From positions 1 to 62,377 of the forward strand of contig NZ_JACESB010000015.1 of assembly GCF_013912005.1 (NCBI RefSeq): a stretch of DNA of 62,377 nt. The letters run 5' to 3'. A program made the translations under genes and the position numbers. The stretch's first letter is position 1. Every line of letters starts with the position of its first letter. Source of the DNA: Brevundimonas sp. (lineage in GTDB: Bacteria > Pseudomonadota > Alphaproteobacteria > Caulobacterales > Caulobacteraceae). Of this stretch, positions 57,555-62,377 are shown piece by piece. The notes under the pieces were generated by a model, which saw nothing but the letters and a program-made list of their open reading frames with translations, was not told where the DNA came from and searched no databases.

Positions 57555-58595
57555 ATGACCCAGCCCGCTCCGCCCGCCGCCTTCGACGTCTGCGCCGTCG
57601 GCAACGCCATCGTCGACGTCCTCGCCCCATGCGAACCCGCCTTCCTCGAGGCCCAGGGGCTGACCCCCGGCTCGATGCAGCTGGTCGACGCCGACCGCAG
57701 CGCCGCCCTCTACGCCGCCATGGCGGCGGGGGTCGAGGCCTCGGGCGGTTCGGCCGGCAACACCGTCGCCGGCGTCGGCAGCTTCGGCGGCCGCGCCGCC
57801 TACATCGGCAAGGTGGCCGACGACCAGCTGGGCGGGGTCTTCACCCACGACATCCACGCCGTCGGCGTCCACTTCGCCACCCCGCCGCTGCACGACGGCG
57901 CCGCCTCGGGCCACGCCACCGGCGTGTGCATGATCAACGTCACCCCCGACGGCCAGCGCACCATGTGCACCTTCCTCGGCGCCGCCAACCAGCTGACCGT
58001 CGCCGACATCGACGCCGACCTGATCGGGGCCTCGGAGATCGTCTATCTGGAGGGCTACCTGTTCGACCCGGCGCCGGCCCGGGCCGCCTTCGAGGCCGCC
58101 GCCGCCGCCGCCCACGCCGCCGGCCGCAAGGTGGCCATCACCCTTTCCGACAGCTTCGTCGTCCACCGCTGGCGCGCCGAGCTGCTGGCCTTCATCGAGG
58201 CCTCGGCCGACATCGTCCTCGCCAACGAGGCCGAGCTGGCGGCCCTGTTCGAGACCGAGGACTTCGACCACGCCGCCGCCCACCTCGGCCGCATCGTCGA
58301 GACCGCCGCCGTGACCCGGGGCGCCGCCGGCTCGGTGGTGTTCGGACGCGGCGGACAGGAGCGCGTCGAGGTCGCCGCCTGCCCGGTCGACAAGGTCGTC
58401 GACACCACCGGCGCCGGCGACCAGTACGCCGCCGGCTTCCTGCTCGGCCTCGCCCGCGGTCTGCCGCTGGCGGACGCCGGCCGGCTCGGATCACTGGCGG
58501 CGGCGGAGGTCATCGCCCACTGGGGTCCGCGCCCGATGACGTCGCTGGAGACGCTGGCGCAGGACGCGGGGCTTCCGCTCGGCCTTGAGGGGTGA
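57555..58595 (+). CDS. PfkB-family carbohydrate kinase (adenosine kinase-like)
   Basis: 346 residues of the ribokinase fold. The N-terminal FDVCAVGNAIVDVLAP and GGSAGNTVAGVGSFGG motifs bind the sugar, and DTTGAGDQYAAGFLLGLARG near residue 280 holds the catalytic Asp and anion hole. Alphaproteobacterial relatives are annotated as adenosine kinase; that is the best guess but other nucleosides or sugars are possible. The last codons, Glu-Gly-stop, are also the first unit of a 7-nt repeat array. Confidence 0.88.
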   Translation: MTQPAPPAAFDVCAVGNAIVDVLAPCEPAFLEAQGLTPGSMQLVDADRSAALYAAMAAGVEASGGSAGNTVAGVGSFGGRAAYIGKVADDQLGGVFTHDIHAVGVHFATPPLHDGAASGHATGVCMINVTPDGQRTMCTFLGAANQLTVADIDADLIGASEIVYLEGYLFDPAPARAAFEAAAAAAHAAGRKVAITLSDSFVVHRWRAELLAFIEASADIVLANEAELAALFETEDFDHAAAHLGRIVETAAVTRGAAGSVVFGRGGQERVEVAACPVDKVVDTTGAGDQYAAGFLLGLARGLPLADAGRLGSLAAAEVIAHWGPRPMTSLETLAQDAGLPLGLEG

Positions 58596-58737
58596 AGAGT
58601 GAGGGGTGAAGAGTGAGTAGTGAGTAGTAAGTTGTGGGGAATGAGCGGTGGCTTCGCCGACCCTCCCCACCCTGATCACTACTCACTACTCACTATTCAC
58701 TATTCACTATTCACTATTCACTATTCACGACTAGCTA
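58587..58737. repeat. Array A: inverted arms of 7-nt degenerate repeats
   Basis: The left arm (58587-58635) is seven units of 7 nt: GAGGGGT, GAAGAGT, GAGGGGT, GAAGAGT, GAGTAGT, GAGTAGT, AAGTTGT. The right arm (58675-58737) is nine: ATCACTA, CTCACTA twice, TTCACTA four times, TTCACGA, CTAGCTA. The arms pair perfectly over 17 bp (58612-58628 with 58678-58694), and GTGGGGA/TCCCCAC adds 7 bp within the core. The left arm starts in the last codons of the PfkB gene and the right arm ends at the stop of the convergent smr gene. It is not a CRISPR: there are no spacers. Confidence 0.9.
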
Positions 58738-59291
58738 CCCCGCCGGATCGTCACATACAGCGCCCCGTCGCCGCCGTGGTGGCGGGCGGCCGGGGCGAAG
58801 CCCGACACCACCCCGCGCAGCGCCGGGGCCTGCAGCCACTCGTGGACCGAGGCGCGGATCACGCCCGAGCCGCCGCGGCGGCCCTGACCGGTGATCACCA
58901 GCACCGAGCGATAGCCCCGCGCCTGGGCCCCCAGCAGGAAGGCGGTCAGCGCGTCCTGGGCCTGGAAGCGGCCGTAGCCGTGCAGGTCGATGCGGGCCTC
59001 GATCGGATCGCGCTCGCGCGACAGCCGCCGCTGGCGGCGGGGCTCCAGTTCCTCGGGATGGCCGCGCTGGCGGTGGAGCGTCGGCTTCTCCGCCGCGGGC
59101 GTCGCTGCGGTTGGGGGCGACCGGGGCGCCGTCTTCGGCGGCGGCGAACCGGTCCGCGGGACCGGCGGGGCCTCTCCCGAGGCGGCGGCGACGATTCTGG
59201 CGGCCTTCCTCGGCTTCGCGGGCGTGACCGTGCCGGTCACCCGGGCCCAGATGCGGCGATCCTCCGGCGTGAGGTCGTCGCTCCGGCTCAT
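58731..59291 (-). CDS. Smr-domain protein
   Basis: 186 residues. The C-terminal half is a Smr domain (IEARIDLHGYGRFQAQDALTAFL, VLVITGQGRRGGSGVIR), a fold with nicking-endonuclease or ribonuclease activity in other Smr proteins. The N-terminal 90 residues are Pro/Ala/Arg-rich and likely disordered. There is no MutS core. It overlaps the XRE gene by 4 nt; its stop codon abuts array A. Confidence 0.88.
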   Translation of the reverse strand: MSRSDDLTPEDRRIWARVTGTVTPAKPRKAARIVAAASGEAPPVPRTGSPPPKTAPRSPPTAATPAAEKPTLHRQRGHPEELEPRRQRRLSRERDPIEARIDLHGYGRFQAQDALTAFLLGAQARGYRSVLVITGQGRRGGSGVIRASVHEWLQAPALRGVVSGFAPAARHHGGDGALYVTIRRGS

Positions 59292-60645: not shown

Positions 60646-61251
60646 ATGTTGAAACTTGTCAAAGGGATGCGGCTCGTGGCCGCGACCCACAATCCCGGCA
60701 AGGCGCGGGAGATCGAGGCTCTGCTGCACGGACATTACGCGGTGGTCACCGCCGGCAGCCTGAACCTGCCCGAGCCGGACGAGACGGAGAGCACCTTCAC
60801 CGGCAACGCCCTGCTCAAGGCGCGCCATGCCGCGGACCGCTCGGGCGAGGTGGCGCTCGCCGACGACTCCGGCCTGTCGGTGGCCGCGCTGGACGGCGCC
60901 CCGGGCGTCTTTTCCGCCCGCTGGGCCGGTCCGGACAAGGATTTCGCCCACGCCATGCGGCGGGTCGAGGAACGGCTGGAGGAGACCGGCTCGGACGATC
61001 GCCGCGCCTGGTTCACCTCGGCCCTGGCGGTGGCCTGGCCCGACGGTCCGGCGGTGGTGGTCGAGGGTCGGGTCGACGGGACCCTGACCTTCCCGCCGCG
61101 CGGCGACCGCGGCTTCGGCTACGACCCGATCTTCATTCCCGACGGCTACCGCGAGACCTTCGGCGAGATGGATCCGGTCCTGAAGGATTCGATCAGCCAC
61201 CGGGCGAGGGCCTTCGCCCGGCTGAAGGCGGCGCTGATGGACGAGGGATGA
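60646..61251 (+). CDS. rdgB: XTP/dITP pyrophosphatase (RdgB/HAM1)
   Basis: Removes non-canonical purine nucleotides (dITP, XTP) from the pool. The 201-residue protein has [19 protein letters not shown] at the N terminus, the catalytic [24 protein letters not shown], and [24 protein letters not shown] 5 nt before 60646 supports this start; an internal ATG at 60667 lacks spacing from its purine run. The final codons (Glu-Gly-stop) form the first unit of array B. Confidence 0.95.
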
Positions 61252-61413
61252 GGGAAGAGGGATTAGGGATTAGGGACTGGGGATTGGGGATCGGGAGCCT
61301 GCTCCCCGGACAGCTCTTCCGGCGATCTGTGGTCGCCCCTGCCTCATCCCTCATCCCTCATCCCTCATCCCTCTTCCCAATCCCCAGTCCCCAATCCCTA
61401 ATCCCCAATCTCG
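61243..61413. repeat. Array B: inverted arms of 7-nt G-rich repeats
   Basis: The left arm (61243-61298) is eight 7-nt units: GAGGGAT, GAGGGAA, GAGGGAT, TAGGGAT, TAGGGAC, TGGGGAT twice, CGGGAGC. The right arm (61344-61413) is ten: TCATCCC four times, TCTTCCC, AATCCCC, AGTCCCC, AATCCCT, AATCCCC, AATCTCG. 61259-61288 pairs with 61376-61405 over 30 bp with one mismatch. A separate hairpin GGGAG-CCTG-CTCCC lies at 61293-61306. The left arm carries consecutive G3 tracts with 3-4-nt loops, a G-quadruplex pattern, and the right arm is the same on the other strand. Confidence 0.9.
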
Positions 61414-61416
61414 CCC

Positions 61417-62377
61417 TTGACCCCCGCACCGGCCGCCGACCTCGCCCTGTACGTCCACTGGCCGTACTGCAGCCGCATCTGCCCCTACTGCGACTTCAAC
61501 GTGGTGCGCGACCGCGGGCGGGCGGAGGAGCAGGCCGCGCTGCTCGGGGCCATCCTGGACGACCTGCAGGCCCAGGCGGCGCTGACGGGGCCGCGGCGGC
61601 TGGCCTCGATCTTCTTCGGCGGCGGCACCCCCTCGCTGATGGACCCCGCCGCGGTCGCGGCGGTGATCGACCGCGCCCGGACGTTGTTCCCGCCCGCGGG
61701 AGACATCGAGATCAGCCTCGAGGCCAATCCGACCGACGCCGAGGCGGGCCGCTTCGCCGCCCTCGCGGCGGCCGGGGTCAACCGTCTGTCCATGGGGGTG
61801 CAGGCGCTGGACGACGCCGCCCTCGCCCGGCTCGGGCGCAACCATTCCGCCGACGAGGCCCGGCGCGCGGTCGCCGTCGCCGCGCGGGCCTTCCCGCGCC
61901 TGTCCATCGACCTGATCTACGCCCGCCCCGGCCAGACGGCGGCGGCCTGGACCGCCGAGCTGCGCGAGGCGCTGGACCTCGGCTTCGAGCACGTCTCGCC
62001 CTACCAGCTGACCATCGAGCCGGAGACCGCCTTCGGCCGCGCCCTGCGTCGGGGAACCCTGATCCCGCCCGACGAGGACCTCGCCGCCGCCCTCTACGAG
62101 ACCACCGGGCGCGTGCTCGAGGCCGCGGGGTTCGAGGCCTACGAGGTGTCGAACCACGCCCGCGGCGTCGCCGCCCGTTCGTCCCACAACCTGCACGTCT
62201 GGCGCGGCGGCGACTATCTGGGCGTCGGCCCGGGCGCGCACGGGCGGCTGACGCTGGCCGGCGCGCGGACCGCCACCGTCGCGCATCGCCGCATCGGCGA
62301 CTACGCCGCCGGCGTCGCCGCCGGAACGCCGTGGAGCGAGCGGACCGCCCTGTCGCCCGCCGAGGCCCGGCAGGGAC
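61417..62377 (+). CDS. hemW: HemW-like radical SAM protein (3' end outside window)
   Basis: About 320 codons are present, from TTG at 61417 to the right edge; the family is about 380 residues. The radical-SAM cluster motif is CSRICPYCDFN (Cys-x3-Cys-x2-Cys) near residue 18, followed by IFFGGGTPSLMD and GVQALDDAALARLGRNH. HemW is a heme chaperone related to coproporphyrinogen oxidase HemN. An in-frame TAA at 61399 rules out any start further upstream. There is no Shine-Dalgarno: the right arm of array B occupies that position. Confidence 0.93.
   Translation, partial: MTPAPAADLALYVHWPYCSRICPYCDFNVVRDRGRAEEQAALLGAILDDLQAQAALTGPRRLASIFFGGGTPSLMDPAAVAAVIDRARTLFPPAGDIEISLEANPTDAEAGRFAALAAAGVNRLSMGVQALDDAALARLGRNHSADEARRAVAVAARAFPRLSIDLIYARPGQTAAAWTAELREALDLGFEHVSPYQLTIEPETAFGRALRRGTLIPPDEDLAAALYETTGRVLEAAGFEAYEVSNHARGVAARSSHNLHVWRGGDYLGVGPGAHGRLTLAGARTATVAHRRIGDYAAGVAAGTPWSERTALSPAEARQG

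Follow-up and report, generated by a model that had tools for sequence, protein, structure and literature searches.

Why should two nearby gaps in one bacterial genome carry arrays of the same build and the same 7-nt period, yet of different sequence? In the 62,377-nt stretch of Brevundimonas sp. DNA that we analysed (hereafter the window), array B fills the gap between an rdgB-like and a hemW-like gene, and array A, built in the same way from other units, lies 2.5 kb away between convergent genes (Table 1). A sequence-only reading of the locus had proposed that the period itself is either selected or produced by one mechanism. Here we argue that array B is probably a gene-less, non-autonomous, MITE-like copy from a family of small palindromic elements that, when complete, appear to carry a PF05635 gene (S23p, the four-helix-bundle or 23S rRNA intervening-sequence protein) between inverted arrays. 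By a complete element we mean two inverted arrays, each of about four or more G-rich heptamers with the G-strands pointing inwards, and a PF05635 gene between them. This reading draws on the architecture, on arms around many PF05635 genes, on an association at the level of genomes, on genome-specific units, on unit turnover at orthologous places with complementarity kept and on in-frame residence in thiC, all of them observed.

Table 1. Features of the window around arrays A and B; the gene names are our assumptions.
Feature	Position	Strand	Remarks
Presumed PfkB-type kinase ORF	57555..58595	+	upstream of array A
Array A left arm	58586..58653	+	TGAGGGG/TGAAGAG units followed by TGAGTAG units; runs over the stop codon of the PfkB-type kinase ORF
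Array A right arm	58664..58728	-	TCACTAC/TCACTAT units
Presumed Smr-domain-type ORF	58731..59291	-	convergent on array A
Presumed rdgB-like gene	60646..61251	+	query for ortholog searches
Array B left arm	61243..61297	+	about eight G-rich heptamers of GAGGGAT/TAGGGAT/TGGGGAT types; overlaps the last rdgB codons and the stop
Array B centre (loop)	61298..61341	.	44 nt, without a gene; 57 nt if the borders are drawn wider
Array B right arm	61342..61413	-	about ten heptamers whose G-rich strand is the minus strand; can pair with the left arm
Presumed hemW-like gene	61417..62376	+	probable TTG start; truncated by the end of the window

Array B is what had been described from the letters, an inverted pair of period-7 arrays at 61243-61413 with about eight units facing about ten and a long stem, as the sequence, TRF and RNA folding agree, and its distance from array A is also as claimed. 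TRF calls period 7 for both arms. The left arm reads GAGGGAT, GAGGGAA, GAGGGAT, TAGGGAT, TAGGGAC, TGGGGAT, TGGGGAT and CGGGAG, with eight G-tracts of at least three G, and the right arm consists of CCTCATC/CCCAATC-type units, one of which is only 6 nt long. The left arm begins within rdgB and provides its stop codon; 3 nt separate the end of the right arm from the likely TTG start of hemW. Folded as RNA, array B forms a long stem of -89.4 kcal/mol (z -4.35; one of 200 dinucleotide shuffles was as good), and array A reaches z -8.10 (none of 200 shuffles as good). Array B is situated between protein genes, outside any rRNA gene, and there is no PF05635 ORF in its centre. Among named matches, its rdgB is closest to those of Brevundimonas sp. 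Root608 (88%) and B. lenta (90%), members of the family Caulobacteraceae.

The expected excess of period 7 over other periods that are not codon multiples is borne out in sampled DNA, with coding and intergenic sequence counted together. In the relative G012 (G000 denotes the source genome and other G numbers its relatives), 400 kb taken at even steps held seven perfect runs of at least 12 matches at period 7, none at periods 4, 5, 8, 10, 13 and 16, two each at 11 and 14, and two to four at the codon multiples 6, 9, 12 and 15. The corresponding figures for 462 kb of the source genome, window included, are nine at period 7 (four of them in the window), six at 14, none or one at 4, 5, 8, 10, 11, 13 and 16, and ten at the codon multiple 9; because the 400-kb sample in this set contains none of the 19 array places described below, the even-step G012 sample is the fairer test. 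The same applies to the pattern TRRNRRN x3, which occurs 10 times in the G012 sample against 0.4 expected and 13 times against 0.4 expected in the window plus the 400-kb source-genome sample, all 13 lying within arrays A and B. The reversed pattern was set aside as a control, since the near-symmetry of the pattern makes it non-independent.

To treat A and B as two loci unrelated in sequence was too narrow a frame: both belong to a family found throughout the genome. The source genome has 70 matches to the three-unit pattern, grouped into 19 places, a lower bound because a looser scan of the first 100 kb of the sample brought out an additional pair (L174). In the window and 15 further stretches, 16 of the 19 places show arms that face each other, and a single arm stands at the remaining three, namely C15, where it adjoins a PF05635 gene, C23 near 94 kb and C28 near a contig end. 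By eye, the units fall into two dominant classes, GGGA+NNN and GTGA+NNN, and the centres are barely more alike than shuffles (10.3 against 9.1). The 31 pairs read on the one contig of G012 are built almost entirely of GTGATTG/GTGGTTG-type units, and an arm of about 30 nt is repeated many times around differing centres. The polarity is constant. G-strands point inwards in 69 of 69 pairs from six genomes (16/16 in G000, 31/31 in G012 and 22/22 in stretches of G008, G014, G015 and G018), and the outward arrangement was not found among them. A subset of the gene-less G012 arrays has a common conserved centre of about 62 nt (..GCCGCCCTTCCGC..), seen by eye also in some G014 arrays. We considered this shared centre as a mobile core and rejected it, the core being present in a subset of G012 centres and no G012 centre matching the PF05635 gene of that genome.

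Orthologous loci from relatives behave as the sequence-only reading had anticipated, with units that change while the period holds, at the rdgB-hemW and pfkB-smr gaps as well as in thiC and at a PF05635 site discussed below. Three species (G000, G012 and G014) carry three different arrays between rdgB and hemW, each with its own units, and the same gap is nearly empty in the close relatives G010 (10 nt) and G006 (7 nt). A tree of rdgB and hemW puts G000, G010 and G006 in one group (support 100) and G012 and G014 in another (100), so that at least two gains of an array, or several clean losses, are needed. Between pfkB and smr, arrays with different units are found in G000 and G018, a 21-nt miniature in G014 and practically nothing in G010 and G012. 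One more locus, its flanks matched by eye, is common to G000, G010 and G018, the G018 version having its own GGGGCTA unit. The converse is seen too: at another, G008 and G015 have identical arms with a different centre and right flank, and G008 and G011 have a further array near-exactly in common, flanks included. We saw no movement of an element, with neither a target-site duplication nor a base-exact empty/filled pair of close strains, the empty sites seen being too diverged to fix exact ends. In G001, G007 and B. bullata (L159, L165 and L077), the rdgB-hemW gap holds a different palindromic element, of the CTTCTCCCC...GGGGAGAAGG type; the gap therefore accepts several hairpin elements. Together, the excess of period 7 and the change of units at constant period give good support to one mechanism or element family, a support that does not extend to selection of the period.

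A candidate complete form comes into view where the arms stand further apart. At two loci of G018, where about 320-330 nt separate the arms, the intervening ORF is a PF05635 gene (E 7.5e-35 and 8.8e-36). A detector of TRRNRRN units found both arms at 20 of 30 PF05635 loci and one arm at four. For a motif-free test, which assumes no unit and requires an inverted repeat between the flanks at z > 4 plus a period-7 signal, we assembled 67 PF05635 loci: 30 from a survey of 299 genomes of the window's family, the 27 best-ranked others and 10 of 31 plasmid records. Inverted repeats were present at 59 of 67 and period 7 in addition at 49 of 67, against 2/190 and 0/190 for ordinary genes of one GC-rich genome, G012, in a test that is not blind, as it was devised after the first PF05635 loci had been examined. 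An earlier run, shuffle-based like this one, gave 61 of 67 at z > 4 instead of 59, made up of 31 of 31 loci from the window's family, 22 of 26 others of the phylum and 8 of 10 on cyanobacterial plasmids. Period 7 was best in 24, 23 and 9 loci of these three groups, respectively; the best period was 11 at six family loci and 8 at four overall (L309, L322, L335 and L342), and one locus was without a strong period. Among 20 separate, lower-ranked PF05635 loci that we chose by hand, 10 passed at z > 4 and 9 on both counts, half failing the inverted-repeat test, and the link between PF05635 and arrays thus weakens with distance.

The association is also seen between genomes. PF05635 is present in 40 of the 299 genomes of the family; we counted a genome as array-bearing from at least three pattern matches and took the array and PF05635 surveys, on the strength of their identical handles, as the same 299-genome draw. 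With relatedness ignored, arrays are found within the genus in 29 of 34 genomes with PF05635 against 12 of 39 without (Fisher 2.3e-6), and in other genera in 4 of 6 against 5 of 220 (Fisher 1.7e-5); at cut-offs of 1 and 5 matches, p is, again ignoring relatedness, 6e-5 and 5e-5 in the genus and 9e-4 and 1.7e-5 outside it. The exceptions in the genus are therefore those 12 array-bearing genomes without PF05635 and the five of 34 that have the gene and fewer than three matches. The source genome itself has three PF05635 genes, with arms that are clear at C11 (L303) and visible by eye at C12 and C15, the right arm of C15 being weak. The site of the C11 element is common to 14 genomes and bears tandem GTGGCGA arms in six, an irregular shared arm in six and a mixture in two, the arms matching on both sides; its PF05635 gene looks to be under constraint (median dN/dS 0.15 over 77 of 91 pairs, with dS near saturation). 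The irregular arm (AGTGCTAGTGAGCAAGGGGTGAGC) has a best period of 11 (L292, L294, L300, L303, L304 and L305) and may represent an earlier condition in which the arm was not tandem.

Unit types tie both window arrays to gene-bearing copies. At a site common to G081 and G117, the PF05635 gene lies between arms (GAGGGATGAGGGA and AGGGATTAGGGATTA) of the array B unit types; exact matches to array B are 13-17 nt long, and shuffles yield at most 12 nt (left arm) and 16 nt (right arm). For array A, its TAGTGAG units flank PF05635 in G004 and G016 as well as in more distant genomes, with exact matches of 15-23 nt where shuffles give no more than 14. Inverted repeats are thus shared with a gene-bearing element, as in a MITE, for the array B types at G081 and G117 and for irregular thiC arms in G003, which are identical at 28 of 31 positions to the arms of the C11 element. 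The units that array B shares are short, so its common descent with PF05635-flanking arms is unproved. Furthermore, the PF05635 arms of the source genome have units other than those of array B, and the G012 PF05635 arms (TAGGCAG) are unlike the dominant GTGATTG/GTGGTTG unit of that genome, a mismatch that counts against simple trans-mobilisation by the resident protein.

The same architecture resides in frame within a protein gene. Matches to thiC came from 40 of 46 genomes, and 30 loci were fetched, 13 with arms and 16 without, G010 not being parsed. In the 13, the ThiC linker consists of an in-frame left arm, centre and right arm (for example L071:1995-2125; among L251-L264), and the 16 loci without arms have a short linker. 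Several units are used (GGGATGA, GTGGCGA, GGTGTGG and GGGTCGA, with irregular arms in G003), and the coding centre, TITLADGSTVP or close to it, is recognisably the same in 12 of the 13, that of G003 being short. Arms of one linker pair with each other better than across species (22.2 against 10.9; none of 20,000 permutations as good). On the thiC tree, array-bearing loci are dispersed, a pattern that suggests that arrays were repeatedly lost, gained or exchanged by recombination. Nature has in this way run a protein-level experiment, in 13 species with different units and a coding centre kept in 12, within the broader one of a hairpin whose sequence has been rewritten repeatedly, even inside a coding region, at constant period and pairing.

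Parts of this picture are known. The GGGAATC and GGGGA(C/T)T heptamer repeats of Xanthomonas and Nostoc (Rehm et al. 2015, PMC4692102) are described as having period 7 and a G-rich strand, as mostly intergenic and near stop codons on the sense strand, as varying in length and sequence between relatives at shared places, as under-represented in divergent gaps and as including convergent inverted pairs (70 cases in Xcc and 75 in Xac). Tandem G-rich 7-nt units and convergent inverted pairs near stop codons are likewise what we find here. The main text of that study proposes no element or gene, reports generally no association with mobile elements and does not contain the words S23, four helix, intervening or transposase; the units described here differ in being genome-specific and of several kinds, with arms that flank PF05635 genes. 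Both host groups recur on the protein side, since a PF05635 relative, XCC0516, is found in X. campestris, and Nostoc heads the S23p matches in 31 plasmid records (nine, with four each for Calothrix and Riemerella).

The intervening sequences (IVS) of 23S rRNA, described with an S23p ORF in Coxiella, likewise combine that ORF with complementary, stem-forming borders, patchy presence and a selfish reading, and their excision by RNase III is established (PMC4990558). Stem-forming borders are found at array B and at most, though not all, PF05635 loci. The IVS reside in rRNA genes, whereas the present arrays are intergenic or in frame in thiC and have tandem-heptamer arms, array B being without an ORF. 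Rickettsia palindromic elements and other MITEs are also short palindromes that can reside in frame in protein genes (PMC10969869); here the arms consist of heptamers in tandem with concerted turnover, and no transposase partner is known. The TAACTGA heptamers of Beggiatoaceae, cyanobacteria and Bacteroidetes are intergenic arrays too, reported as direct repeats mostly just upstream of starts with one inverted case (PMC4679880, in the main text of which S23 and four helix are absent). Palindromic (A)n/(T)n microsatellites of Fusarium mitochondria have facing arms and are described as mobile (PMC7218506), and they differ in their mononucleotide arms and organellar location, with no gene mentioned in the abstract. 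In the open-access literature that we searched, no report joining heptamer arrays and S23p was found; what is already known comprises inverted G-rich heptamers in Xanthomonas, related arrays in Nostoc and S23p with the IVS in rRNA genes (PMC4692102, PMC4990558).

How might such elements persist? Copies would spread by copying, and their arms, once transcribed, could form a long RNA duplex cleavable by RNase III, by analogy with the IVS of rRNA; as the enzyme could then remove the duplex from the transcript, an insertion between the co-transcribed rdgB and hemW might be nearly harmless. Within a genome, recombination, or template switching from arm to arm, would homogenise the two arms of its copies, so that units would drift in concert and pairing, polarity and period would be kept. 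The least certain step is a direct role of S23p, through binding of the arms or as the driver of their spread; to our knowledge the protein is not a known transposase.

A simpler account, which we think rather unlikely, dispenses with a mobile element: the arrays would be plain simple-sequence repeats, with heptamers made by polymerase slippage and arms copied onto each other by template switching in the hairpin. The tandem structure speaks for it, as does the better match of arms to their own partners, in the thiC linkers above, among the GGGA-type loci of G000 (25.6 against 22.6 across loci; 173 of 20,000 permutations) and in G012 (21.0 against 19.8; p 0.0052), and the heptamers of Xanthomonas and Nostoc have been suggested to fit slippage (PMC4692102). 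Left unexplained are the polarity in 69 of 69 pairs, the arms around PF05635 genes, the much-repeated G012 arm of about 30 nt with its differing centres and the identical arms of G008 and G015 with a different centre and right flank. These processes may well be the homogenising step inside the element model, being probably the source of the tandem structure and of arm matching, and not of the polarity or the gene. Those identical G008/G015 arms can also be cited for a selected structure, be it a 3'-end hairpin, a G-quadruplex or a decoy, that regulates neighbouring genes and keeps its period for function. This we judge improbable, even though arms stay complementary through changes of unit, related units form G4 in vitro (PMC4692102) and an array edge overlaps a gene 3' end or comes within 20 nt of it in 25 of 31 G012 loci (five of 31 being divergent; genes predicted by script, table read by eye). 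The nearly empty rdgB-hemW gaps of G010 and G006 and the empty pfkB-smr gap of G010 argue against it, as do the lack of a T-tract 3' of the right arm of array B and of any Rfam match in the window.

Two further mechanisms have very little to commend them. Telomerase-like or reverse-transcriptase-templated addition of G-rich heptamers to both ends of a break, followed by joining, would account for inward G-strands, a genome-specific unit and a constant period, and RVT_1 matches do occur in the array-bearing G008 (two) and G016 (one); the domain has no match in the array-rich G000, G012, G014, G015 and G018, and each arm resembles its partner more closely than it does the arms of other pairs, which makes this origin most improbable. 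Equally hard to credit is mobilisation by a Y1 transposase, as in REP/RAYT-type elements, for all the likeness of intergenic palindromes near gene ends, as PF01797 has no match in the source genome and is matched in only one of 19 genomes of the genus (G018). Loss of SbcCD, considered as a cause of the arrays, was discarded: SbcD exceeds its curated cut-off in none of these 19 genomes, with arrays or without (six have weak matches below it), and such a loss is therefore at most permissive. The lack of this hairpin nuclease above the cut-off may let long palindromes persist in the genus.

On the element reading, two old puzzles, heptamer arrays and an IVS protein without known function, become one testable object. 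A bolder version, which we hold to be possible and rather doubtful, makes S23p the driver of widespread transposase-free mini-elements: its pentameric ring would read the heptamer tandem at about one unit per subunit, with four to five units per arm. The copying of arms and their concerted turnover would then allow the recognised sequence to drift, with period, polarity and pairing locked. If so, the heptamers described in Xanthomonas and Nostoc, among others, would be relics of S23p elements, and the role of S23p would lie in element maintenance or spread. The two solved relatives, XCC0516 (2gsc) and 2rld, have five chains each, and XCC0516, from Xanthomonas campestris, is described as a ring-shaped pentamer (PMC4990558). 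S23p had no match in phage records. On cyanobacterial plasmids (L338, L342 and L343), its gene is flanked by cas6 and cas4 in two records; in the third, it has cas10 on one side and a gene of the cmr3 family on the other.
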